Assembly: GCF_039533965.1 (NCBI RefSeq)
Contig: NZ_BAAAUN010000002.1
Span: 220,320-284,319, forward strand
Length of the DNA stretch: 64,000 nt
Direction of reading: 5' to 3'
DNA from: Microbacterium luteolum
Lineage (GTDB): Bacteria; Actinomycetota; Actinomycetes; Actinomycetales; Microbacteriaceae
Positions 17,277-48,872 of the stretch are shown piece after piece; within the stretch, counting starts at the first letter, position 1, and each line of letters begins with the position of its first letter. The translations under genes were made by a program, and so were the position numbers. Below the pieces are notes generated by a model. The model had not been told where the DNA came from. It saw only the letters and a list, made by a program, of their open reading frames with translations, and did not search any database.

Positions 17277-18326
17277 TCAGCGGGCCGCGCCCTTGAGCGA
17301 GGTCGTCACGTCGTCGTAGCTGAAGATGATGCAGTGGACGGTGCGGTCGCGCCACCGCATCCACGAGCTCTTGGTCGGGGTGTACGGATAGAAGTCCAGT
17401 TCGGACTGCTCGTACGAGAGACCGACGAAGCCCTCGAACTCCGCGAGGCACGCGTCCCACGCCAGGTCGTAGAGGGCATCGTCGCCGGGGAAGTCGCCGT
17501 CAGGAACCTGGTGGATGAAGAAGACCTCGTCGGTGTGCGGCTGATCGCAGGGGACGACCGGCAGCTCGAAGATCTCCTCGTCCGGGTCGTACTCGACGAG
17601 GGGCATGCAGTCGCCGACCGCGAGCTCCGCGAAGGGCACCATCTCGGCGCCCTCGATCTCGGAGGGATCGGTCGTCCCCTCCGTCGAGTCATCGGCCGGC
17701 GGACGCTCGCTGGGCGTGGCGACCGGGACGGGATCCGCCCCCACGGTCGAATCGATTCCGAGCGCGAGGAGGGACACTCCGAGCGCAAGGACCGTGCCGA
17801 AGACGGTCACGCCCATGCCCGTGATCCCCGGCCACTTCGCCCCTCGGAGGAAGAGCGAGACGAGAGAGGTCAGGAACCCGAGTCCGAGCACGATCCAGCC
17901 GACGGTCGCGATCGGCGGCACGCACGCGAGAACGACGCCGAGCACCGCGACGGCGAGGCCGATGATTCCGAGCACGGAGATCCTGCGTGCCGGTGCCGGT
18001 GCCGGTGCCGGTGCCGGTGCCGGCGACGGGGCGGCGCCGGGGTATCCCGTCACCGCCGCCGCGGGGTATGCCGGAGCGGATGCCGCACCCGGATACCCGA
18101 CCTGCGCCTGCACGGCGTACGGCGGCACGAACGGCTCAGGCTCGGCGGCGGCGCTCGACGCCACCGCCTCCGGTGCGACAGCTGTGGCGGGCGCCTCGGG
18201 TGCGACAGCTGCGGGCGGCGCCTCCGGTGCGACCTGCGCGGTGCGCACGTGAGCCGTCCACTGCTGCCCGTCCCACCACCGCAGGATTCCGGAACCGTCG
18301 TCGTACCAGCCCGCAGGTGTCGTCAT
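17277..18326 (-). CDS. DUF2510 / septum-formation-domain membrane protein
   Basis: A 349-residue envelope protein. Residues 1-28 (TPAGWYDDGSGILRWWDGQQ) are the DUF2510 repeat that faces the cytoplasm; a long Ala/Pro linker follows, then about three membrane helices (118-195) and an extracytoplasmic domain (240-345) with AVGDCMPL, VPCDQPHTDEVFF and FPGDDALYDLAWDACLAEF, matching the actinobacterial septum-formation family with paired cysteines. AGGAAAG precedes the ATG. The adjacent upstream gene is a partial paralogue, so a tandem duplication with domain exchange at the C-terminus is likely. The exact role is unknown. Confidence 0.82.
   Translation of the reverse strand: MTTPAGWYDDGSGILRWWDGQQWTAHVRTAQVAPEAPPAAVAPEAPATAVAPEAVASSAAAEPEPFVPPYAVQAQVGYPGAASAPAYPAAAVTGYPGAAPSPAPAPAPAPAPARRISVLGIIGLAVAVLGVVLACVPPIATVGWIVLGLGFLTSLVSLFLRGAKWPGITGMGVTVFGTVLALGVSLLALGIDSTVGADPVPVATPSERPPADDSTEGTTDPSEIEGAEMVPFAELAVGDCMPLVEYDPDEEIFELPVVPCDQPHTDEVFFIHQVPDGDFPGDDALYDLAWDACLAEFEGFVGLSYEQSELDFYPYTPTKSSWMRWRDRTVHCIIFSYDDVTTSLKGAAR
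17987..18023. repeat. Hexanucleotide tandem repeat inside the DUF2510 gene
   Basis: About six near-perfect copies of GTGCCG, coding on the minus strand for an alternating Ala-Pro linker. Copy number changes would keep the frame and alter linker length in steps of two residues. Confidence 0.85.
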
Positions 18327-35219: not shown

Positions 35220-35891
35220 ATGCGGATTCTGATCGTGGAGGATGACGAGCGCGTCGCTGCTGCGCTCGAGGCGTTCCTCGCGCGCTCGGGCTACGCCACC
35301 GTCCGGGCCCCTGACGGCGCTGCGGCTCTGGATCTCCTCGGGGTCGACACGGAGGTGGTGCTGCTGGATCTGGGTCTGCCGGATGTCGATGGAATCGATC
35401 TGTGCCGTCGCATCCGGGGTCGGTCCGACGTGCCGATCGTGATCGTCACGGCCCGCAACCAGGTCACCGAGCGCATCAAGGGACTCCGCGCCGGCGCCGA
35501 CGACTTCGTCGTGAAGCCGTACGACGTGCACGAGCTCCTTGCCCGCATAGAAGCGGTGACGCGGCGCTCGCGCCCGATGCGCGCCGAGTCCGAGGCGCGC
35601 GTGCTGCTCGACGGCGGGGAGGTGCAGATCGATCTCGTGGCGCGGCAGGTGACGGTTGATGGCGGACCCATCGACCTCACCCGCAAGGAGTTCGACATCG
35701 TGGCCGTGCTCGCGCGGTATCCCGGTGTCGCCGTGCCGAAGGAGCGCCTCATCCGGGAGGTGTGGAACACCGACTGGCGAGGCTTCGGCCACTCGCTGGA
35801 GGTCCACGTCGGAGCGATCCGCCGGAAGACCGGAGACCGCCGCCTCATCGAGACAGTACGGGGCGTCGGCTATCGCCTCGCGGGGTCCTGA
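35220..35891 (+). CDS. OmpR-family response regulator
   Basis: DNA-binding response regulator, 223 residues. The receiver domain has acidic pocket Glu-Asp-Asp (7-9), phospho-acceptor Asp50 (VVLLDLGLPDVDG), Thr77 and Lys99 (FVVKPYD); the C-terminal winged helix (130-220) ends VRGVGYRLAGS. GGGGAG precedes the ATG. It is three bases from the histidine kinase gene. Downstream in the same group is a TAXI-type binding protein, so the system may sense or control uptake of an organic acid. Confidence 0.95.
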   Translation: MRILIVEDDERVAAALEAFLARSGYATVRAPDGAAALDLLGVDTEVVLLDLGLPDVDGIDLCRRIRGRSDVPIVIVTARNQVTERIKGLRAGADDFVVKPYDVHELLARIEAVTRRSRPMRAESEARVLLDGGEVQIDLVARQVTVDGGPIDLTRKEFDIVAVLARYPGVAVPKERLIREVWNTDWRGFGHSLEVHVGAIRRKTGDRRLIETVRGVGYRLAGS

Positions 35892-35894
35892 GCG

Positions 35895-37271
35895 ATGCGC
35901 CGTCGCCTGATCATCGTGTTCCTGGTGCCGCTGGTCGCGATCCTGCTCACGCTCGGCGGTGCCGCGGGATGGGGGGCCGCGCGCAGCATCCAGCAGGCGT
36001 TCTACGCCGAACAGCTCGGCGACCTCGGGTACTTCATCACGAGCGCCCGTCAGTCGCTCCGCTCCGGCAGCTCCGCGGTCGTCGATGCGGAGGTCATGAG
36101 GTTCCGGGAGGTCTACGGCATCGACGTGATGGTGTTCGACCTCGCCGGCAGTGTGTGGGCGGCAGGGGAGGACGACGGCACGGTGCTGTCCGAGGCGGAC
36201 GCGGAGCGCGTGCGGCTCGCGCTGTCGGGGCGACGAGCCGAGCCCCCGGGAACGGTCTTCCCGTGGATCGTCGCCGACGCGGCGCTCGTCGAACCCGTGT
36301 TCGACGACGGCGATGTCATCGGTGCGGTGCTGGTTTCGGCCGATGTGGCCGCGCCCCGTGCGGCGATCCTCCAGCAGATCACGGTGCTGTCGGCGATCGC
36401 CGTCGCCCTGATCGCGCTCGGCGTGCTCCTGGTGTTCCGGCTCGCCCGCTGGGTGCTCTCGCCGGTGCGGCGGCTCGACGAGGCGATGGTGGCCATCGAG
36501 CGCGGGGAGATGGACACCCGCGTCGCGGAGGACACGGGGCCGCCGGAGCTGCGCCGCATGACGCGGGTCTTCAACGGCATGGCCGATGAGATCGAGCGGG
36601 TGATGACGCGACAGCAGGAGTTCGCGCTGAACGCCTCGCATGAGCTGAGGAATCCGCTCAACGCGCTGCTCCTGCGTGTCGAGCACCTCGCCACCGGCCT
36701 CGGCGACGAGTGGCGCGAAGATGTCGAGGAGACCAGAGAAGAGGGGCGCCGGATGGCCCGCATCCTCGAGACCCTCCTGGGTCTCGCGCGCGGCGGGCGC
36801 AGCGATTCCACGATCTCCGCGGTCGACCTCGCGACGCTGGCCGCCCGACGCGCAGACGCCTGGCGCGACGTCGCCGGTCAGCAGGGGATCGCTCTCCGCC
36901 GGGTCGGCGAGGGCTCGGTCATGAGCGTCACCGACCGGACGATCGTGGAGAGCGCCCTGGATGCGGTCATCGACAACGCCGTGAAGTTCTCGCCGCCCGG
37001 CTCCACCGTCGAGGTCGGAGCGGCGCGCGATGGCGACGTGTGCCGGATCACGGTGCGCGACCAGGGGCCCGGTCTGACCGATGAGCAGGCGGCATCGGCG
37101 GCCGAGAGGTTCTGGCGCAGCGACGACAGCAGGAGCACGCCCGGCTCCGGACTGGGACTCGCGATCGCGACCGACCTGCTGGCGTCGGTGGGTGGGGAGC
37201 TGGCCGTGTCGTCAGCCGAGGGCGACGGACTCACCGTGTCGCTGCTGATCCGCGACGGAGCGACCTCGTGA
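35895..37271 (+). CDS. Sensor histidine kinase
   Basis: Membrane kinase of 458 residues: TM1 near 6-28, an extracellular sensor domain (30-155), TM2 near 161-180, HAMP (180-235, VLSPVRRLDEAMVAIERGEM), DHp with His249 in NASHELRNPLNALL, and catalytic ATPase motifs DNAVKFSP, DQGPGL and GSGLGLAIATDLL. It follows the response regulator by three bases and overlaps the next coding start (GTGA), so all three genes are one operon. Confidence 0.95.
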   Translation: MRRRLIIVFLVPLVAILLTLGGAAGWGAARSIQQAFYAEQLGDLGYFITSARQSLRSGSSAVVDAEVMRFREVYGIDVMVFDLAGSVWAAGEDDGTVLSEADAERVRLALSGRRAEPPGTVFPWIVADAALVEPVFDDGDVIGAVLVSADVAAPRAAILQQITVLSAIAVALIALGVLLVFRLARWVLSPVRRLDEAMVAIERGEMDTRVAEDTGPPELRRMTRVFNGMADEIERVMTRQQEFALNASHELRNPLNALLLRVEHLATGLGDEWREDVEETREEGRRMARILETLLGLARGGRSDSTISAVDLATLAARRADAWRDVAGQQGIALRRVGEGSVMSVTDRTIVESALDAVIDNAVKFSPPGSTVEVGAARDGDVCRITVRDQGPGLTDEQAASAAERFWRSDDSRSTPGSGLGLAIATDLLASVGGELAVSSAEGDGLTVSLLIRDGATS

Positions 37272-38241
37272 CCGCCCTGCGTCGCCGCATCGTCGCCGCA
37301 TCGTCGCCGCCTTCGCTGCGCTCGTGCTGCTCGGCGCGATGGCGGGATGCACGTCGCGTGCGAGCGAATGGACCGGCGAGGAGTACACGATCGCGGGCGG
37401 CGGGTCCACGGGCGTCTACTTCGACTACGGCGGCCACCTCGCCGACGAGCTGTCGCGGTCCCTGGACATCCGGATGTCGGTCGACGAGACCGCCGGATCC
37501 GTCGACAATCTGCTGCGCGTGAGCGCGGGGGACGCACTGATCGGCTTCGCGCAGGGCGATGCGGCGGCCGATGCCGTGGCCGGTGCCGGGGCATTCCCCG
37601 AGCCCCTGGCCATCGAGGCCGTCGCTCGGCTGTACGACGAGTACCTGCACGTCGTCGTGCGCGGAGACTCCGAGATCGAGGGCATCGCCGATCTCGCCGG
37701 CAAGGACGTCTCCCTCGGAGCGGAGAACTCCGGGGTGAACGTCATCGCGAGCAGGGTGCTGGATGCCGCGGGCGTCGACGCGGCATCCGTCCGCAATGCG
37801 CAGCTCGATCTCAGCGGCTCCATCGAGGCGATGGAGCGTGGCGAGATCGACGGCTTCTTCTGGGTGGGCGGGCTGCCGACCCCGGGGATCGCGGAGCTCG
37901 CCGAGCGGATGCCGGTGCGCCTGCTCCCGATCGAGCAGGAGTGGGTCGTCGAGGTGAACGAGCAGTACTCGCATGCGTATCGTCCGGCCGACGTCCCGGA
38001 GGGCATGTACGGTCTGCGGGAGTCGGCGCCCACCATGGCGGTGCCCAACTACCTCGTCACCTCGGCATCCACGCCCGACGGCGTCGTGCGCGACGTGCTG
38101 TCCGGCCTCTTCGACGCGCGTCCGCGGATCGCGGAAGAGGTTCCGGCGGCAGCTCTGCTCGATCGGCGTCAGGCGATCTTCACCGGTCCGGTCGCGCTGC
38201 ATCCGGGTGCCATCGAGTACTACCGCGACCTGCGCGATTGA
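37268..38241 (+). CDS. TAXI-family solute-binding lipoprotein, frameshifted in its signal peptide
   Basis: Extracytoplasmic solute-binding protein of the TAXI (TRAP-associated) type; mature domain YTIAGGGSTGVYFDYGGHLA to EYYRDLRD. The expected start is GTG at 37268, overlapping the kinase stop (GTGA), but this frame is broken by an 11-bp tandem duplication (37281-37311). Deleting one 11-base unit gives 320 residues with a perfect lipoprotein signal, RRRIVAAFAALVLLGAMAGC. As written, only a GTG at 37324 opens the main frame and gives 305 residues without a usable signal. No TRAP permease genes are nearby. It may be a pseudogene, a phase-variable gene, or a sequence error. Confidence 0.8.
37281..37311. 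repeat. 11-bp tandem repeat causing a frameshift
   Basis: GTCGCCGCATC at 37281-37291 and 37292-37302, then a partial third copy GTCGCCGCC at 37303-37311. The unit is not a multiple of three, so each gain or loss changes the reading frame of the TAXI gene. Confidence 0.9.
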
Positions 38242-38510: not shown

Positions 38511-39260
<750 letters not shown>

Positions 39261-39301: not shown

Positions 39302-40210
39302 ATGCGACGCACACGGACACTGGCAGGCATCGGAATCGCGGCGGTGGCCCTGCTGGCGCTCACGGCCTGCAACAGCGGCAGCCCGTCCGACCCCGGCGCC
39401 GGCACCGGCGGCGAAGAGGGCGGCGAGGAGTCGACCTGGTTCGAGGTCGCCACCGACGTCGAGCTCGAAGGCAGCCCCACGTTCGATGCCATCAAGGAGC
39501 GCGACAAGGTCGTCATCGGCGTCAAGGAGGACCAGCCCGGTCTCGGGTTCCTCGATGTGACGACGAACGAGCGCACCGGCTTCGATGTCGACATCGCCCG
39601 CTGGATCGCCGCATCCCTCGGGTATGACGAGGACAAGATCGAGTTCAAGCCGATCGCCTCCGCGAACCGCGAGCAGGCGATCGTGAACGGTGACGTGGAC
39701 TACTACGTCGGCACGTACTCGATCAACGACAAGCGCAAGGAGCAGATCGCCTTCGCCGGGCCGTACTTCATCACCGGACAGGGTCTGCTGGTCGCTGCCG
39801 ACAACGAGGACATCAAGAGCGAGGCGGATCTCTCCGCCGACACCACGGTGTGCTCGGCGACGGGCTCGACGCCGATCCAGAACATCCGCACGAACTTCCC
39901 GGAGGTTCCCACGAAGGAGTTCGACCTGTACTCCGCGTGCGTCGAGGACCTGCTCGCCGGCACGGTCCAGGCGGTCACGACCGACCAGGCCATCCTCATC
40001 GGCTACGCCGCTCAGGATCCTGACAACCTGAAGGTCGTCGGCGAGCCGTTCACCGAGGAGCGCTACGGCGTCGGCCTCGCGAAGGACGACGCGGCCCTGC
40101 AGGAGCACATCAACAAGCTGTTCACCGACGGCGGCGACATCTGGCAGGCGATCTTCGACAAGAACCTCGGCGACTCGGGTATCGAAGTCTCCCAGCCCAC
40201 CGTCGACTGA
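39302..40210 (+). CDS. gluB: Glutamate-type ABC transporter, substrate-binding lipoprotein
   Basis: Lipid-anchored periplasm-equivalent binding protein, 302 residues. The signal peptide ends in the lipobox LTAC (Cys23), followed by a Gly/Glu linker and the SBP_bac_3 fold: VVIGVKEDQPGLGFLD near residue 71, GFDVDIARWIAASLGY near 93, YVGTYSINDKRKEQIAFAGP near 133. GAAGGAG precedes the ATG. Confidence 0.92.
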   Translation: MRRTRTLAGIGIAAVALLALTACNSGSPSDPGAGTGGEEGGEESTWFEVATDVELEGSPTFDAIKERDKVVIGVKEDQPGLGFLDVTTNERTGFDVDIARWIAASLGYDEDKIEFKPIASANREQAIVNGDVDYYVGTYSINDKRKEQIAFAGPYFITGQGLLVAADNEDIKSEADLSADTTVCSATGSTPIQNIRTNFPEVPTKEFDLYSACVEDLLAGTVQAVTTDQAILIGYAAQDPDNLKVVGEPFTEERYGVGLAKDDAALQEHINKLFTDGGDIWQAIFDKNLGDSGIEVSQPTVD

Positions 40211-40269: not shown

Positions 40270-40917
40270 GTGGACGTCATCTTCGGAAACCTCGACCTGT
40301 GGGGAGAGGCGGTGAGCAACACCCTGCTGATCTTCTTCGGCGGCGGCGTTCTCGCCCTCGTCCTGGGTCTGATCGTCGGAGCGGCGCGAGTGGCCCCGGT
40401 ACCGATCGCCCGCGGTGTGGGCACGCTCTACGTGAACCTCATCCGCAACACCCCGCTGACCCTCGTCTTCTTCTTCTTCATCTTCGGCTACCCCCAGCTG
40501 GGGCTGCCGAAGCTGAGCACCACGGTGCTCGGCATCCTCGCCATCGGCATCTACACGGCGACGTACGTCGCCGAGGTCATCCGCGCGGGAATCAACACGG
40601 TGCCGGTCGGTCAGGCCGAAGCGGCCCGAGCGATCGGTCTTCCCTTCGGACAGGTCATGTCGCTCGTCATCCTGCCGCAGGCCTTCCGCTCGGTCGTCCC
40701 ACCGATGATGAGCGTCTTCATCGCGCTGCTGAAGAACACGACGGTCGCGGCCGGATTCTCGGTCGTCGAGCTCGGCGCCATCCGCTCCTACCTCAGCGAG
40801 CGCGGCGAGAACGCCCTCGTCGTCCTGCTCTGGGTCGCCGTCATCTTCGTCGCCCTGGTGATGCTGCTCAGCTGGCTTCAGCGCTATCTCGAGAACAAGT
40901 GGAGGATCGCGCGATGA
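40270..40917 (+). CDS. gluC: Glutamate-type ABC transporter permease
   Basis: Membrane permease of 215 residues with about five helices. The EAA-like coupling loop reads GQAEAARAIGLPFGQVMSLV near residue 118, and VNLIRNTPLTLVFFFFIFGY near 56 is typical of HisM-type permeases. It starts with GTG after GGGGAGG. The stop overlaps gluD (ATGA). Confidence 0.9.
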   Translation: MDVIFGNLDLWGEAVSNTLLIFFGGGVLALVLGLIVGAARVAPVPIARGVGTLYVNLIRNTPLTLVFFFFIFGYPQLGLPKLSTTVLGILAIGIYTATYVAEVIRAGINTVPVGQAEAARAIGLPFGQVMSLVILPQAFRSVVPPMMSVFIALLKNTTVAAGFSVVELGAIRSYLSERGENALVVLLWVAVIFVALVMLLSWLQRYLENKWRIAR

Positions 40918-47935: not shown

Positions 47936-47944
47936 TCGAGCAGT

Positions 47945-48019
47945 GACACGGGGTGCCGCATCCGCGGCTGAGAACAGACCCGTCGAACCTGATCTAGTTC
48001 GTACTAGCGAAGGGATGTC
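47945..48019 (+). promoter_or_regulatory. TPP riboswitch (THI element)
   Basis: GACA (47945-47948) pairs with TGTC (48016-48019) as P1. The core motifs GGGGTGCC, GGCTGAGA, ACCCGT, GAACCTGATCTAGTT and GCGAAGGGA are all in order. The GAAGGG that would be the thiM ribosome binding site lies in the 3' strand of the aptamer, so TPP binding should hide it and block translation. Confidence 0.95.
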
Positions 48020-48023
48020 GCCC

Positions 48024-48872
48024 ATGAGCGATCGTCTGCGTCCGGAATCCACCATCGACCTCGCGGCTTCGGCCGGGACGCTGCTGGGGGTGCTGCGCGA
48101 GGCTCCGCCGTTGACGCACTGCATCACCAACGCCGTCGTCACCGGCTTCACGGCGAACGTGCTGCTCGCCGTGGGGGCGGCACCGGCCATGGTCGACATC
48201 GTCGGAGAGTCCGGGATGTTCGCCGGGGTCGCCTCCGGCCTGCTGATCAACCTCGGCACCCCGACGCCCGAGCAGCGTGCGGCGAGTGTCGAGGCGGTCG
48301 CCGGGGCCTCGGCAGCAGGCACACCCTGGGTGCTCGACCCGGTCGCCATCGGCGCGCTGCCCGTGCGCACCGCCCTCGCGCAGGAGCTCGTCGCACAGCG
48401 TCCCACCGCGATCCGCGGCAACGCCTCGGAGATCCTCGCGCTCGCGGGCCTCAGCGCGGGCGGCCGCGGCGTGGATGCGACGGACAGCACGGATGCCGCA
48501 GCCGATGCGGCTCTGTCGCTCGCGGCGCGTTTCGGGAGTGTGGTCGCCGTCTCCGGTCCTGTCGATCTGATCACCGACGGGCAGCGCGTGCTGCGCATCG
48601 CGAACGGCGATGAGCTGCTCACCCGCGTCACGGGCGGAGGCTGCGCGCTCGGCGCGGTGATGGCCGCGTTCCTCGGAGCGGCCAGGCGTGCGGGTGTCGA
48701 CGCGTTCACCGCCGTCGCCTCGGCCAGCCTCGTCTACACGATCGCGGCGGAGCAGGCCGCGCTCCGGTCGACGGGGCCGGGCAGCTTCGCCGTCGCCCTG
48801 CTCGATGCCCTCTCCGCGGTGAGCGCGGCCGATCTCGCCGCCGGCGCCCGTGTCGAGAGCGGCGCGCTGTGA
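48024..48872 (+). CDS. thiM: Hydroxyethylthiazole kinase
   Basis: Phosphorylates hydroxyethylthiazole, a salvage step of thiamine synthesis. The 282-residue protein has [20 protein letters not shown] near residue 31 and the C-terminal anion hole region [20 protein letters not shown] near 200 with its catalytic Cys. The ATG at 48024 is chosen; an in-frame ATG at 48015 is too close to GAAGGG and lies in the riboswitch. It overlaps the next gene by GTGA. Confidence 0.95.

Follow-up and report, generated by a model that had tools for sequence, protein, structure and literature searches.

A perfect 11-bp tandem array places the coupled start of a TAXI-family lipoprotein gene out of frame in a Microbacterium luteolum genome

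We found a short tandem duplication that breaks the reading frame of a TAXI-family solute-binding lipoprotein gene in Microbacterium luteolum, although the start of this gene is in frame in all 88 genomes with which it could be compared. The duplication lies in a stretch of 64,000 nucleotides (C2:220320-284319, here called the window) from a 4.14 Mb genome assembled in three contigs. We consider it probable that expression of the gene was lost recently and at the level of the strain, in a manner that is reversible in principle and involves no dedicated switch. Since the relatives compared begin this gene in register, a recent and possibly reversible loss of one gene is the most likely reading of the data. 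The earlier suggestion of a lineage-specific change fits best when taken as a frameshift confined to this lineage; the body of the gene shows no decay.

The TAXI gene follows directly on a sensor histidine kinase gene, and all genes described here for the window lie on its forward strand. The TGA stop codon of the kinase (37269-37271) overlaps a GTG codon (37268-37270) in the sequence GTGA (37268-37271), and a GGAG at 37257-37260, 7 nt before this GTG, is a likely ribosome-binding site. As originally predicted, the coupled GTG does not lead into the TAXI protein; the reading that it opens (37268-37522) is out of frame and closes at 37522 after 84 codons. The TAXI body itself is open and encodes 305 amino acids when read from an internal GTG (37324-38241), with the lipobox Cys codon at 37348. 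It was identified with TIGR02122 and PF16868, and its TIGR02122 score of 248.8 bits against a cut-off of 84.35 places it in the TAXI family.

The two frames are separated by a perfect tandem array of period 11, which Tandem Repeats Finder (TRF) located in the window at 37280-37310 (2.82 copies, or 2.8 when rounded, 100% matches, unit CGTCGCCGCAT). The array begins 12 bases after GTG 37268 and occupies the signal-peptide codons, where the predicted non-triplet duplication thus proved to be real. Its extent was predicted almost correctly, in that there are two full copies and 8 bases of a third in the register originally given (GTCGCCGCATC), with the end at 37310 and not at 37311. The run of matches at lag 11 is 20. 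When 64 kb were simulated 60 times with an order-5 Markov model, the longest run at non-triplet lags of 5-20 was 15 and a run of 20 was never reached, and none of 20,000 codon shuffles of the 99 bases around the array gave a run of even 16; these results rule out a chance repeat.

We also surveyed 464 kb of the genome, made up of the window and 400 kb of further stretches, for arrays with a lag of 4-60, a run of at least 12 and at least 1.8 copies. The 11-bp array is the sole non-triplet array in the window and one of three in the surveyed sequence. The second, of 13 bp in 2.77 copies (L159 13165-13200, corresponding to C2:113165-113200), sits between a 303-codon open reading frame and a minus-strand start that resembles that of a lipoprotein, about 20-60 bases before the latter, and could affect expression. 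The third consists of 3.0 copies of a 7-bp unit, and no clear coding frame was seen in its flanks. A 22-bp repeat on contig C1, with 1.77 copies, fell narrowly below the survey criteria. Repeats of triplet length were found by TRF elsewhere in the window, namely 6.2 copies of a 6-bp unit at 17987-18023 and 2.6 copies of a 27-bp unit at 18165-18233, and several length differences are seen there in the alignment to the sister genome G198.

A search with the TAXI body gave matches in 156 of 366 genomes of the genus. We inspected the start region in 89 genomes (30 loci and a further 59) whose matches were near full-length and at least 53% identical; the 88 genomes other than that of the window do not include G242, where the match ends at a contig end, G338, or matches below 53% identity such as those in G133 and G346. 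In all 88 the TAXI gene begins in frame at the coupled codon, an ATG or GTG that overlaps the kinase TGA, and continues into a lipoprotein-type signal. The four-base NTGA overlap between kinase and TAXI gene is thus universal among them, and only in the genome of the window is the start out of frame. The alignment with relatives that had been proposed as a check therefore rules out that they start elsewhere. In the five nearest relatives (G197, G198, G210, G246 and G156) the distance from the start to an aligned point downstream is 48 nt, against 59 in the window. The TAXI start in Leucobacter (L071) also reads in frame on inspection, and that of G338 (L144) is in frame by eye. The TAXI body of G338 is broken in several places, with its parts in different frames; the assembly is a single contig, 96% complete with 4% contamination, and the breaks represent either sequencing errors or a decayed gene.

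An intact counterpart of the window protein was found in a protein search in which 8000 candidates were scored and 428 passed the threshold, the results being drawn from the best 120 of the 428. The lipobox pattern was recognized in 118 of these best 120 proteins, and the remaining two have a lipobox by eye. One of them, P0001, has 320 amino acids, and 302 of 305 aligned residues (99%) are identical to those of the window TAXI protein; of the three differences, one arises from reading the internal GTG as a start and two are at internal residues. Its signal peptide is complete and begins MTALRRR. Removal of one 11-base unit had been predicted to restore an intact lipoprotein signal and 320 residues, and both the lipobox GAMAGC and the length of 320 agree with this real database protein. 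P0001 is encoded on a 5315-bp contig other than that of the window and represents a cluster of three member sequences; its source is shown as '-', a mark shared with the window's own proteins. A near-identical lineage therefore appears, from the protein sequence, to carry an intact TAXI allele. As to alleles in both frames within one lineage, the window is out of frame and P0001 is intact as a protein, the repeat number in its DNA being not directly seen. The frameshift would accordingly be recent or unstable.

Selection on the gene was gauged against G198, with a dN/dS of 0.11 for the TAXI body and 0.116 for the kinase. Synonymous and non-synonymous changes number 18 and 6 on the window branch of the TAXI gene and 24.5 and 9.5 on the sister branch, with 38.5/12.5 and 34.5/9.5 on the two branches of the kinase; these ratios and counts mostly reflect the time before the duplication and cannot date the event. 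By these measures the TAXI body is under the same constraint as its kinase neighbor. A decayed pseudogene was rejected, the body being without sign of decay. An undecayed body is also compatible with continued use of the gene, whether by switching or by leaky expression.

The neighborhood of the gene suggests what the intact protein may do. An OmpR-type response regulator (35220-35891) lies upstream of the kinase (35895-37271), both identified by domain search; the kinase is intact, with HAMP, HisKA and HATPase_c domains, and 93% identical to the copy in Microbacterium sp. TPD7012 (L031). The order regulator, kinase, TAXI gene was the same at all 45 loci compared (of 48 found, the remote L076-L078 being left out), so that the binding-protein gene is conserved with a kinase and a regulator throughout, as would be expected of a BctC-like system. 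Downstream of the TAXI gene are a polar amino-acid ABC transporter ATPase (38511-39260; closest model GlnQ, NF007027, 332.8 bits, below the cut-off of 379), a family 3 ABC substrate-binding lipoprotein (SBP_bac_3, 39302-40210; PF00497, 77.2 bits against 26.4) and a polar amino-acid ABC permease (40270-40917; TIGR01726, 66 bits against 42.2, and PF00528). The substrate-specific NCBIfam models for these three proteins all scored below their cut-offs. An ABC ATPase and binding protein follow the TAXI gene at 43 of the 45 loci, and the two exceptions include L063, which ends 330 bases after the TAXI gene. The window also contains a TPP riboswitch at 47939-48032 (Rfam RF00059, 72.3 bits).

The TAXI query aligns over residues 21-302 with the glutamate-binding protein VcGluP (8s4j, E value 4.5e-29) and over residues 18-302 with 1us4. 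In VcGluP, Y45 and Q93 are reported to matter most for L-glutamate, followed by S75, together with E125 (PMC11574862). All four are present here, Y45, Q93, S75 and E125 corresponding to query residues 32, 77, 59 and 106, and they are kept in 75 of 75 locus rows, which include the window and some genomes in duplicate. Other contacts differ in the alignment, with D157, Y200 and M201 of VcGluP replaced by V, W and V. VcGluP belongs to the same family, and its described glutamate-binding residues are conserved in the window protein (PMC11574862). Both VcGluP and BP0403 of TAXI-GltS (PMC12344293) are described as linked to a TRAP or GltS membrane component, whereas the neighbors of the window TAXI gene are two-component genes on one side and, on the other, those of an ABC transporter that has a binding protein of its own. 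The genome has a single TAXI match over the cut-off and no match to TIGR02123 (TRAP_fused), the fused membrane subunit of TAXI-TRAP systems; across the genus this model matched in 73 of 361 genomes and passed the cut-off in one. A DctM match of 31.4 bits (cut-off 23.8) occurs elsewhere in the genome, on C1, so that a membrane partner for the TAXI protein is conceivable.

The conserved set has the look of a two-component system assisted by a TAXI protein. Bordetella pertussis offers a precedent for dependence of such signalling on a binding protein: its BctDE system is reported to respond to its ligand only with the binding protein BctC (PMC5812351). BctC is described there as a TctC-type protein that binds citrate and has its own transporter; the window protein, unlike BctC, belongs to the TAXI type and is encoded by a gene overlapping that of the kinase, and the genome gave no match for a TRAP_fused subunit. 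From sequence, context and this precedent, the intact TAXI protein is likely a co-sensor for the overlapping kinase, perhaps for glutamate. In the literature we searched by title or the start of the abstract, TAXI proteins paired with two-component systems were not found. The locus points to a little-described gene set, in which an orphan-looking TAXI protein is tied to a regulator and kinase, with a polar amino-acid transporter alongside.

A recent loss of expression could have come about as follows. Slippage during replication, at short direct repeats within the Arg-rich codons, would have produced the 11-bp array; the 20 matches at lag 11 imply that about 9 bases of direct repeat would have been in place before the event. 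The array puts the coupled start out of frame and leaves the TAXI body open. As translation from GTG 37268 ends at 37522, the lipoprotein is expected to be neither exported nor anchored in this strain. The intact protein would be anchored to the membrane, may bind glutamate and would act as co-sensor for the overlapping kinase, helping to regulate the adjacent polar amino-acid ABC transporter, and the strain would be without that input. The same slippage could, at a low rate, remove the extra unit, which would make the change reversible in principle.

The original prediction went further and took the gene to be controlled by slippage as an on/off switch. On that reading the locus is a contingency locus whose array length flips often, leaving a fraction of cells without the co-sensor as a form of bet-hedging on nutrient sensing. 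As in contingency genes, a non-triplet tandem repeat lies within the frame close to the 5' end, the rest of the gene being intact, and the near-identical P0001 is intact. There is also precedent in pneumococcal capsule genes, in which spontaneous short duplications inside the open reading frame are reported to silence the gene and to revert by loss of a copy (PMC4022640 and PMC4243769, citing Waite et al. 2001, 2003). The window resembles these cases in that a reading frame is interrupted by a short duplication; reversible silencing was reported for the capsule genes, whereas here we have one assembly of an actinobacterium and a binding-lipoprotein gene. Against frequent flipping, the array has only 2.8 copies, and PMC4022640 expects reversion of at most about 1e-5 for an insertion of up to 9 bp. 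A contingency gene would also be expected to keep its repeat tract among relatives, and the 11-bp array is absent from the 88 other genomes and so occurs in one of 89. Non-triplet direct repeats in the start stretch do not exceed a run of 8 in 87 of the 88 orthologs; the stretch reaches 75 bases upstream of the aligned point, so that 10 of the 88 rows, those with longer leaders, are covered in part. To our knowledge, moreover, contingency genes do not typically encode signalling co-sensors. The literature on phase variation in Microbacterium, searched by title, yielded no such switch. A switch as originally stated is thus not supported, the array being unshared and low in copy number, and we regard a frequently flipping contingency locus as unlikely; dedicated phase switching is possible but unproven.

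The one ortholog with a longer run, G216 (L028), bears on this reading as well. It has 4.2 copies of a 5-bp unit, with a run of 16, in the same n-region codons, and its gene is in frame; none of 20,000 codon shuffles reached a run that long. This array in a second species counts in favor of a contingency locus, and the sequences of the window and G216, with independent arrays in the same codons, hint that the start is prone to slippage. Carried to its limit, the idea would make the Arg-rich start a slippage hot spot in the genus, with different arrays in different species (units of 11 bp in the window and 5 bp in G216), so that a minority of cells in a population would reversibly lose sight of an external nutrient signal, a bet-hedging on sensing in a free-living actinobacterium; we think this distinctly unlikely. 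Tandem repeats of another high-GC actinobacterium, Mycobacterium tuberculosis Erdman, are described in PMC12817950, where promoter repeats are reported to vary at 1e-2 to 1e-3 per chromosome and copy number to differ between near-identical strains and within populations. Those repeats lie in promoters and alter their strength (PMC12817950), whereas the window array lies in codons and breaks the frame. If the window array is unstable, it would extend tandem-repeat silencing to signal sensing in an actinobacterium.

It is quite improbable that expression persists in spite of the array, whether by translation from within the gene (GTG 37324 or ATG 37339), by ribosomal frameshifting or from a rare non-standard start. 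In its favor, the TAXI body is open and conserved, and the duplication leaves an Arg-rich n-region readable in the frame of the body. However, there is no ATG, GTG or TTG in the TAXI frame between the upstream stop at 37246 and GTG 37324, and a protein begun at 37324 would have 8 residues ahead of the Cys and lack a charged n-region. The sister G198, moreover, has no start codon at the position aligned with 37324, though an in-frame GTG lies two codons upstream.

The genome assembly gives little room for an artefact. The 5546-bp contig C3 corresponds to an rRNA operon. It shares overlaps of exactly 105 bp, 100% identical, with each end of C1 and of C2, so that we are probably dealing with a short-read graph assembly in which the rRNA operon repeat was collapsed. 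Exact overlaps of this length suggest an assembler word of about 105 bases, which spans the 31-bp array. Tandem repeats are prone to miscounting and this is a single assembly, but an assembly or sequencing error, an alternative raised in the original prediction, is very unlikely in view of graph words much longer than the array and of the 52 matched G198 genes that are unsplit in the window. The latter figure comes from a codon-bias survey, which replaced one based on longest open reading frames that had picked up antisense frames in this GC-rich DNA. Of 55 G198 genes, 52 had a match in the window, as 54 of the 56 window genes had in G198, and no split was seen in any of those matched; the survey is blind to breaks within about 20 residues of the start, did not flag the TAXI break and gauges general quality only. 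Against G246 the survey gave three splits, all of them N-terminal, which look like misplaced starts.
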